A DNA stretch of 37,700 nt from Thermoflexia bacterium (GTDB lineage Bacteria; Chloroflexota; Anaerolineae; B4-G1; SLSP01). The notes under the pieces were generated by a model that worked only from the letters and a program-made list of their open reading frames with translations, did not search any database and had not been told where the DNA came from. Numbering within the stretch: the first letter of the stretch is position 1; each line of letters opens with the position of its first letter. Below, in pieces: positions 12,861 to 24,871 of the stretch. A program made the translations under genes and the position numbers. The stretch is taken from contig DUEJ01000006.1 of the NCBI GenBank assembly GCA_011192175.1, positions 5,950 to 43,649 of the forward strand, written 5' to 3'.

Positions 12861-12910
12861 TTAGTCGGATAGTCAGATAGTCGTTAGTCGAATGGTCATT
12901 AGTCAGATAG
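12861..12910. repeat. Tandem 7-8 bp repeats, TAGTCRGA type
   Basis: Units based on TAGTC recur every 7 or 8 bp directly after the HydB-like gene. The 13-bp segment TAGTCGGATAGTC (12862-12874) has a perfect reverse complement at 13635-13647, so this array and that at 13635 form inverted repeats flanking the HNH gene. Confidence 0.7.
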
Positions 12911-13609: not shown

Positions 13610-13634
13610 GGATAACCAAGATTGGAGATTACCA

Positions 13635-13682
13635 GACTATCCGACTACCTGACCACCAGACTACCTGACTACCTGACTACCA
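13635..13682. repeat. Six 8-bp tandem repeats, GACTACCT type
   Basis: Six consecutive octamers (GACTATCC, GACTACCT and variants) occupy 48 bp just before the ribosome-binding site of the second NuoE-like gene. They are the reverse complement of the TAGTC array at 12861. Confidence 0.8.
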
Positions 13683-21787: not shown

Positions 21788-21877
21788 CTGTGCGCCGATG
21801 AAGTTATCGTACCAGATGATTTCAACGCTCCCTGGCCGGCAGATATGTGGCAGCTCTTTGAGCGCGTTTTAGTTAGT
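21788..21877 (+). pseudogene. Possible antitoxin C-terminal remnant
   Basis: The hypB-hypF spacer contains an open stretch reading ADEVIVPDDFNAPWPADMWQ, then LFERVLVS. It resembles the PDDFDAPLPxxxLxLFE ends of short antitoxin-like proteins. There is no start codon or ribosome-binding site in this frame, and upstream stops block it. It is most likely a decayed leftover. The resemblance is from memory of family style, so confidence is low. Confidence 0.25.
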
Positions 21878-21887
21878 GAGAGTTCCT

Positions 21888-24341
21888 GTGAATTCACCCC
21901 ATCTAAAGACCGCCGCCCACATCACCATCACTGGCATCGTCCAGGGCGTGGGTTTTCGACCCTTTGTCTACAACTTGGCTGGACGGTTGGCGCTCGCCGG
22001 GTGGGTGCTCAACCACTCCGGCGGCGTTGATATCGAAGTAGAAGGGGCGCCAGACGCGCTGGACGCTTTCGCCGTAGCGTTAGAGAAAGCAGCACCGCCA
22101 TTGGCGCAAATCACTTCGTTGCAGGTAAAGCCAATTTCACCGCCGGGTTATGCGGATTTCGAGATCCGCCGCTCAGAGCGTAAACCTGGAGAACATCTGC
22201 TCATCTCGCCCGACGTCGCGACCTGCGCTGATTGCTTGCGCGAGCTCTTCGATCCCGCCGACCGCCGCTACCGCTACCCCTTCATCAACTGCACCAACTG
22301 CGGTCCGCGCTTCACCATCATTGAGGATATCCCCTATGACCGCCCCCAAACCACCATGCGGGTCTTCCCGCTCTGTGCTGCCTGCCGCGCCGAGTACGAA
22401 GACCCCACCGACCGCCGTTTTCACGCGCAGCCCAACGCCTGCCCCACTTGCGGCCCGCATATCTGGTTGAGCGAGAGAGCGAGTCAGCGAAAAGGCGAGA
22501 AGACGAGAAGGCAAGAAAGCGAAAAGGCGAAAAAGCGAGAGGGTGAGTCAGCGAGAGAGCGAGAGGACGCACCGGATACGCAGCCGGAGCTCTCCAATGC
22601 AGCCGCTCTGGGGCGTGCCAAAGAGCTACTAGAAAATGGCGCGATTTTGGCTATCAAGGGCTTGGGCGGCTTTCACCTGGCCTGTGACGCCACCAACGCC
22701 GCGGCCGTCCGCACGCTGCGCCGGCGCAAACACCGCCCCTACAAACCCTTCGCCATCATGGTGCCCACACTTGACGATGTGCGCGCTTACTGCGAAGTTC
22801 CGCCAGAGGCAGCCGCGCTCTTCAAATCACCGCAGTGCCCCATCGTGTTGCTGGAACGCCGTAAGCCAGCCCCAGAGCCACCCCGGCCGCCAATTGTGGC
22901 CGCAGTCGCGCCGCACCAGCAGACTCTGGGCATGATGATTCCCTACACTCCCCTCCACCATCTCCTGCTGCGCGACGTGGGTCGCCCGCTCGTGATGACC
23001 AGCGGCAACGTCACCGCAGAACCCATCGCCCAAGAGAACGCCGAGGCTTTGCGCCGCCTCGCCCCGCTGGCCGACGCTTTCCTGCTCCACAACCGCGAAA
23101 TTTATGCGCGCTACGATGATTCTGTCTGGCAAGTACTCCCTGTGACAATCGAGACTGGTGCCCCCCGCTCCAATCTGAAAATAGAACACCTCACTCAACC
23201 TCTCCGCCGCGCGCGAGGTTACGCTCCCGTCCCCATTCCGCTGCCGTTCCCTGCCCGTCGCATCTTCGCCACCGGCCCGCTGCTCAAAAATACCTTTTGT
23301 CTCACCCGCGATACACACGCTTTTCTCAGCCAACATATCGGCAATCTGGAGAGTTGGAAGACCTTGCAGCATTATCAGAGCGCGCTGGCGACTTACCAAC
23401 ATCTTTTTCGCCTCCAGCCGGAACTCGTCGCCTGCGATCTGCACCCCGACTATCTCACCACCCGCTTCGCGCGACAATACGCTGAGGAGCACGGTCTCCC
23501 CGCGCCGTTACCCATCCAGCACCATCACGCGCATATCGCCGCCTGTCTGGTGGATAACGGGCGCACCCTGGAAGCCGGCCCGGTGCTCGGCGTGGCCTTC
23601 GATGGCGCCGGTTACGGCACCGATGGCGCTATCTGGGGCGGCGAGTGGTTGGTAGGCGATTATCGGGGCTTCCGGCGCGCCGCGCAGCTGGCATATCTCC
23701 CGCTCCCCGGCGGGGACGCGGCCACGCGCCATCCCTGGCGGATTGCCGCCGCCTACAGCATCGCCCTACTGGGCGTGGAATCGCTGCCGGCCGGGGGCTT
23801 CCCTCCCGGCGAAATTGACCTCTTCCAGCAGATCATCGCGCGCGGTGTCAACGTACCGCAAACCTCTTCGATGGGGCGTCTCTTTGACGCCGTCAGCGCG
23901 TTGCTCGGCATCTGCCGCGAGAGCAGCTACGAGGCGCAGGCCGCCATTGAATTAGAGCAAATGGCCGCGTCCTGCCGAGATTCCTTTGCCCCTTACCCCT
24001 TCACTCTGGGGGATCACGAAGGCGTTCTTCAAATCACCGTGGCGCCGCTCTTTGAGGCGCTCTTAGCCGAGCTGGCGCGGGGCACCGCTGTAGCGCAGAG
24101 CGCCCGGCGCTTCCACGACACGGTCGTCGAAATGCTCCTCCGCGTCAACGGACGTTTGCGCGACCAGACCGGGATCAACGTAGTCGCCTTGAGCGGCGGC
24201 GTCTTCCAGAACCGACTCCTGCTCCAACTCGCCGTTCCGCGACTCCGCGCGGCTGGCTTCGACGTGCTACTACATCACCGGGTGCCTTCCAACGACGGTG
24301 GCATCTCCCTGGGGCAAGCTACGCTAGCGAATAGCTGTTAG
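21888..24341 (+). CDS. hypF: Carbamoyltransferase HypF, with repeat-encoded linker
   Basis: The product has 817 residues from GTG at 21888 (GAGAG 5 nt upstream); GTG at 21876 would add four residues. Order: acylphosphatase domain (GIVQGVGFRPF near residue 16), zinc fingers (Cys113/116/135/138/163/166/185/188), YrdC-like domain (AIKGLGGFHLACD, KHRPYKPFAIM) and Kae1-like domain (QHHHAHIAACLVDNG, ALSGGVFQN). HypF makes thiocarboxamide on HypE from carbamoyl phosphate, the source of the cyanide ligands. Residues 195-227, between the zinc-finger and YrdC domains, are a Glu/Arg/Lys/Ser-rich insert encoded by twelve 8-bp repeats. The gene is otherwise complete. Confidence 0.95.
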   Translation: MNSPHLKTAAHITITGIVQGVGFRPFVYNLAGRLALAGWVLNHSGGVDIEVEGAPDALDAFAVALEKAAPPLAQITSLQVKPISPPGYADFEIRRSERKPGEHLLISPDVATCADCLRELFDPADRRYRYPFINCTNCGPRFTIIEDIPYDRPQTTMRVFPLCAACRAEYEDPTDRRFHAQPNACPTCGPHIWLSERASQRKGEKTRRQESEKAKKREGESAREREDAPDTQPELSNAAALGRAKELLENGAILAIKGLGGFHLACDATNAAAVRTLRRRKHRPYKPFAIMVPTLDDVRAYCEVPPEAAALFKSPQCPIVLLERRKPAPEPPRPPIVAAVAPHQQTLGMMIPYTPLHHLLLRDVGRPLVMTSGNVTAEPIAQENAEALRRLAPLADAFLLHNREIYARYDDSVWQVLPVTIETGAPRSNLKIEHLTQPLRRARGYAPVPIPLPFPARRIFATGPLLKNTFCLTRDTHAFLSQHIGNLESWKTLQHYQSALATYQHLFRLQPELVACDLHPDYLTTRFARQYAEEHGLPAPLPIQHHHAHIAACLVDNGRTLEAGPVLGVAFDGAGYGTDGAIWGGEWLVGDYRGFRRAAQLAYLPLPGGDAATRHPWRIAAAYSIALLGVESLPAGGFPPGEIDLFQQIIARGVNVPQTSSMGRLFDAVSALLGICRESSYEAQAAIELEQMAASCRDSFAPYPFTLGDHEGVLQITVAPLFEALLAELARGTAVAQSARRFHDTVVEMLLRVNGRLRDQTGINVVALSGGVFQNRLLLQLAVPRLRAAGFDVLLHHRVPSNDGGISLGQATLANSC
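22471..22566. repeat. Twelve tandem 8-bp repeats inside hypF
   Basis: Ninety-six bases consist of twelve uninterrupted octamers with consensus GCGAGARG. Twelve units equal 32 codons, so the frame is kept at this copy number; gain or loss of one or two units would shift it. The array falls exactly at the boundary between the zinc-finger and YrdC-like domains. Confidence 0.9.
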
Positions 24342-24829: not shown

Positions 24830-24871
24830 AACTTTCGACTTTTGACTTTCGACTCTTGACTTTTGACTTCA
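24830..24871. repeat. Six 7-bp tandem repeats, GACTTTT type
   Basis: Six consecutive heptamers (AACTTTC, GACTTTT, GACTTTC and variants) fill the bases upstream of hypD and run up to 9 bp from its ATG, leaving only a weak AGG as ribosome-binding site. The motif is related to the AGTC/GACT arrays at 9044, 12861 and 13635. Confidence 0.8.

Follow-up and report, generated by a model that had tools for sequence, protein, structure and literature searches.

Degenerate octamer array in the hypF gene of a Thermoflexia bacterium as a probable local copy of genome-wide short repeats

Contingency loci with simple sequence repeats consist of homogeneous, slippage-prone units and occur as on and off alleles in populations. 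Repetitive DNA can also be tolerated inside conserved proteins, as in Rickettsia, where genes contain in-frame palindromic elements. In Xanthomonas and Nostoc, degenerate heptamers of the form (GGGANTN)n have been described, a period of 7 being favoured in bacteria, and polymerase slippage has been suggested as the underlying process (PMC4692102). In marine Beggiatoaceae, 7-bp TAACTGA arrays are found genome-wide, mainly in intergenic regions; the few copies within ORFs are located mostly at the protein periphery and have been proposed to be tolerated (PMC4679880). Heptamer-derived families also appear in surveys of prokaryotic satellites, which count Chloroflexus aurantiacus among the satellite-rich organisms (PMC6749651); a literature search for such arrays in Anaerolineae found no description.

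Here we describe an array of this kind in the hypF gene of a Thermoflexia bacterium. On the features tested, it belongs with the Xanthomonas/Nostoc and Beggiatoaceae repeats. Similarly to the former, there are dozens to hundreds of heterogeneous short-period arrays per genome, in both orientations, and their length varies between related species; unlike the Xanthomonas/Nostoc heptamers, which are G-rich and have been investigated chiefly as intergenic, quadruplex-forming repeats, the unit here is AGCGAGAA, the period is 8, and some copies are in frame within genes (PMC4692102). With the Beggiatoaceae repeats, the arrays share the genome-wide, mainly intergenic distribution and the short period; the TAACTGA unit, however, is near-invariant and contains stops in one orientation, whereas here the units are degenerate, and arrays repeatedly occupy a linker inside a conserved enzyme (PMC4679880). 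The similarity to the Rickettsia elements consists in the presence of in-frame repetitive DNA in a conserved protein, but those elements are longer palindromes, in contrast to the short-period tandem array in hypF.

The window, that is, the whole stretch of 37,700 nucleotides analysed here (contig DUEJ01000006.1 of assembly GCA_011192175.1), encodes a HypF protein that scores well above the curated cut-off of the respective family model (Table 1). The domain order is complete (acylphosphatase, zf-HYPF, YrdC, HypF_C, HypF_C_2), the frame is unbroken, and all invariant residues are present.

Table 1. Features of the hypF gene, in window coordinates
Feature	Position	Strand	Details
hypF, carbamoyltransferase HypF	21876..24341	+	821 aa, intact; TIGR00143, 744 bits, curated cut-off 466
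Acylphosphatase domain	21918..22166	+	PF00708, residues 15-97
First HypF zinc finger (zf-HYPF)	22221..22322	+	PF07503, residues 116-149; best of two reported stretches
Second zinc-finger region	22374..22457	+	invariant C167, C170, C189, C192
Octamer array	22470..22565	+	12 imperfect units, consensus AGCGAGAA; HypF residues 199-230, in frame
Remaining linker and first helix ahead of YrdC	22566..22622	+	array-free
YrdC-like domain	22623..23138	+	PF01300, residues 250-421
Kae1-like carbamoyltransferase domains	23256..24317	+	PF17788 and PF22521

The array starts after a gap of 12 bp from the end of the second zinc-finger region, spans 96 bp (12 x 8 bp, or 32 codons) and has a purine content of 83.5%. 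The initial annotation had described it as a perfect 8-bp array of 12 units at 22471-22566. The number of units and the place stand, the best register being shifted by one base, a matter of register choice only, but the array is far from perfect: adjacent copies match at 71% (Tandem Repeats Finder), every unit differs from AGCGAGAA in 1-4 of the 8 positions, the last two units are the only identical neighbours, and no exact lag-8 run exceeds 8 bp. Across 97 bp, the lag-8 identity reaches 0.72; the maximum identities in shuffled sequences, taken over all periods from 4 to 20, are 0.523 for the window (60 dinucleotide shuffles) and 0.544 for hypF (500 codon shuffles). Chance or composition is thus ruled out as the source of the array.

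As initially annotated, the array is located in the coding region, in frame, and its translation, SERASQRKGEKTRRQESEKAKKREGESARERE, forms a charged linker that connects the zinc-finger part of HypF to the YrdC domain. The possibility of a tolerated insertion into a linker that is short elsewhere had been raised as well, and it is well supported: solved HypF homologs are much shorter in the zinc finger-YrdC segment, which consists of about 17 residues in 3vth vs 54 in the window protein. In an AlphaFold2 prediction that used 54 sequences, linker residues 201-240 show the lowest interior confidence, with means of 50-72 for ten-residue blocks vs 92 overall; some helix is predicted at residues 201-221. 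The claim that loss or gain of one or two units truncates HypF is borne out by frame arithmetic: changes of -1, -2, +1 and +2 units lead to stops after 220, 246, 254 and 228 aa, respectively. A change by three units in either direction keeps the frame.

Arrays similar to that in hypF are found in at least 45 places in the 2.4 Mb source genome. A stricter, four-unit GCGAN4 pattern yields 132 and 127 matches on the two strands, 259 altogether; these counts include overlapping matches, and the reversed pattern is not a clean null control because the arrays themselves match it. The gene context was sorted on the basis of 28 loci with flanks, in which most of the sibling arrays occupy intergenic positions or precede gene starts. 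About 2 of the 28 are clearly gene-interior, namely, those in an HdrA-like protein (L023) and in a PTPS-related membrane protein (L011:103-3096). Arrays at or near gene ends are associated with alr (L036) and hisS (L030), and in the case of an array-containing DUF2344 gene (L013), the contig ends within the gene. The octamer array of the PTPS-related membrane protein includes 9-bp units; another linker of this protein contains an additional, AGTCAAA-like array. The window contains three other 7/8-bp arrays, at 12862-12910, 13630-13682 and 24831-24869, with the degenerate units TAGTCAGA, TACCTGAC and ACTTTTG; all three are located outside ORFs, although ORFs account for approximately 90% of the window. 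The array at 24831-24869 sits immediately ahead of hypD. The existence of many related arrays throughout the genome, mostly outside gene interiors, is characteristic of dispersed repeats of the STRR/LSSR type. The unit is lineage-restricted: matches to the array were obtained in 17 of 60 relatives, and several family members contain no match to the pattern.

The comparison of unit numbers among relatives that the initial annotation had proposed gives, in a genome of the same genus (G001; HypF 68% identical), an array of 12 units at the same hypF site and in the same frame. The G001 array begins directly after CTGGTTG, and its units show partial turnover: units 1-4 recur exactly as units 5-8, a 32-bp block that alone would break the frame. 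The arrays of the source genome (G000) and G001 are 0.67-0.75 identical at every shift, so shifted alignment did not show unit-by-unit orthology; a rare GGTGAG start at unit 10 is common to both. Within the family, significant 7/8-bp arrays are present in the zinc finger-YrdC linker in 9 of 19 HypF genes, often with different units, vs 13 of 93 linkers outside the family. The G015 linker contains CCAGCAA heptamers (about 310 bp); those of G014 and G017 contain mixed 8- and 7-bp units and differ in length by 30 bp; G004 and G016 also have mixed arrays; and some family members have no array in this linker. In relatives without an array, for example, L121, an AGCGAG-like stretch is already present at the array point.

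A second case is provided by the HdrA-like gene, one linker of which contains 12 octamers in the source genome (L023:418-3063) vs 28 in G003 (L237), at about 85% identity between the two. The octamer arrays differ by 128 bp, which is not a multiple of three, and an adjacent array of heptamers offsets this by 14 bp in the opposite direction, for a net difference of 114 bp, or 38 codons; hence the frame is kept by the sum rather than by three-unit multiples. Changes of the arrays between species are thus sometimes frame-breaking and later compensated. The peptide encoded by the array of the HdrA-like protein is nearly the same as that in HypF.

No out-of-frame alleles were detected at the linker among 119 HypF genes read through it, all of which are open, with a single ORF across; these genes come from consensus assemblies of different species only, and broken genes might be under-represented among the 80 loci that were kept by match score, the other genomes being included without such selection. 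A split hypF (L171, G047:C197) was considered as an out-of-frame allele and rejected because its halves are separated by a scaffold gap (Ns) whose two sides carry copies of the same flanking sequence. Similarly to contingency loci of the Haemophilus type, the array combines a coding-region location with a unit that is not a multiple of three (PMC2651432), but it lacks two defining features of such loci, namely, homogeneous, slippage-prone units, given the low copy match and the short exact runs, and the occurrence of both on and off alleles in strains or closely related organisms, given the open frames in this set of species.

Periodic stretches of 36 bp with at least 75% lag identity were collected from 124 HypF genes (loci L039-L171 and the window). 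There are 47 segments of period 7/8; counted singly, 37 segments have period 7, 11 have period 8, and one has period 12. Periods of 5, 6, 9, 10 and 11 were not found in these 124 genes, and codon-shuffled HypF sequences yielded no periodic segments in 20 trials. Of the 47 arrays, 44 are located at five linker or loop sites, clusters that were defined post hoc from the data themselves: in window-protein coordinates, approximately 197-239 (zinc finger-YrdC), 366-370, 417-437 (YrdC-Kae1), 533-543 and 700-713. The array density per kb in the same loci is 0.158 in HypF, 0.144 in non-ORF DNA and 0.009 in the interiors of other genes (ORFs of at least 200 aa), so that HypF exceeds other gene interiors about 17-fold and roughly equals non-ORF DNA. 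In this comparison with the other ORFs of the same loci, HypF genes contain 7/8-bp arrays unusually often. Outside Chloroflexota, array-bearing hypF genes occur in records labelled as Ratteibacteria (L083, L084) and Nitrospira (L077), which implies that the arrays do not derive from one inheritance. Arrays occur at non-ORF density, whereas periods of 6, 9 or 12 are almost absent; this suggests a mutational process confined to 7/8-bp units and growth of the arrays through frame-breaking steps. This recurrence is the more interesting part of the observations, compared with the idea of a switch, and placing more weight on it calls for a control with other linker-rich proteins.

The array is very probably a local copy of lineage-specific, genome-wide degenerate short repeats that persists in a HypF linker tolerant of in-frame insertions and is in all likelihood selectively near-neutral. 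A lineage-wide mutational process would generate 7- and 8-bp tandem repeats; the array would have grown in, or would have been placed into, the flexible zinc finger-YrdC linker, either by local growth from native AGCGAG-like seeds or by exchange with other arrays, and would persist because the linker accepts extra charged residues as long as the total length is a multiple of 3 bp. Within genes, arrays would survive only at tolerated variable loops with the frame kept; purifying selection would act on the frame, and the linker peptide itself would be selectively near-neutral. Growth probably occurs by slippage or by exchange between arrays, and the bias to frame-incompatible periods points to multi-unit jumps or temporarily broken frames. 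Two observations argue against this explanation: the density of arrays in HypF exceeds what would be expected if any linker sufficed, as judged against the other gene interiors of the same loci, and frame-incompatible periods dominate although periods 6, 9 or 12 would be harmless.

According to the initial annotation, the array could be a frameshift switch for hydrogenase maturation. In such a phase-variation model, slippage by one or two octamers would truncate HypF after the zinc fingers, block the synthesis of the cyanide ligand and turn the [NiFe] hydrogenase reversibly off. The unit length and the truncating effect of such changes are compatible with this proposal, as are the exact 32-bp block of G001 and the 128- and 14-bp changes in the HdrA-like gene, which represent frame-breaking steps over evolutionary time, and the enrichment of 7/8-bp arrays in HypF over other genes. 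However, the units are degenerate, without long exact runs, and interruptions stabilise microsatellites, at least as outlined for human data (PMC4102424); both congeners have 12 units despite only 68% HypF identity, so that unit numbers in the G000-G001 pair are restricted to a multiple of three and divergence is slow; 119 of 119 linkers are open; arrays of this type occur genome-wide, with dozens of siblings mostly outside genes; and a literature search for phase variation of hypF found no description. The case for a hydrogenase switch is therefore weak, and we regard the switch as quite improbable. It is hardly likely, too, that the repeated appearance of frame-incompatible 7/8-bp arrays in HypF across many lineages reflects an occasional advantage of losing hydrogenase maturation reversibly, with array length acting as a slow evolutionary on/off contingency and compensating heptamer and octamer changes restoring the frame.

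Recruitment of the charged linker to a role in HypF, for instance, in spacing the domains, binding a partner or contacting RNA, would fit with the retention of the same 12 units in the congener and with the strong charge and partially helical prediction of the peptide. Nevertheless, at the corresponding position relatives either encode peptides of unrelated sequence (QQPATSF, IQNPKSK) or lack an array, the near-identical peptide in the HdrA-like protein indicates a property of the DNA repeat, and the confidence of the predicted structure is low, making recruitment unlikely. The fragmentation of the source assembly (169 contigs, 86% complete) might hint at an assembly or binning artefact, or at a pseudogene, but the presence of an array at the same site in the independent genome G001, the intact HypF frame with all invariant residues, and the similar arrays in many relatives make this explanation extremely unlikely.

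Under the preferred explanation, a local copy of the genome-wide repeats, the hypF array shows where a genome-wide short-repeat process leaves its products within genes, namely, in a small number of linkers and loops of an enzyme with several domains, the frame being kept. In the G016 hypF (L142), a second array together with a repeated CCTGTCCTGAGCTTGCCGAAGGA element is located in the YrdC-Kae1 linker, around residue 420. A different repeat-like insertion, encoding SLRAKRSNLEIATSS, is present in the zinc finger-YrdC linker of a Ratteibacteria HypF (L083), indicating that other sequence types use this linker too.
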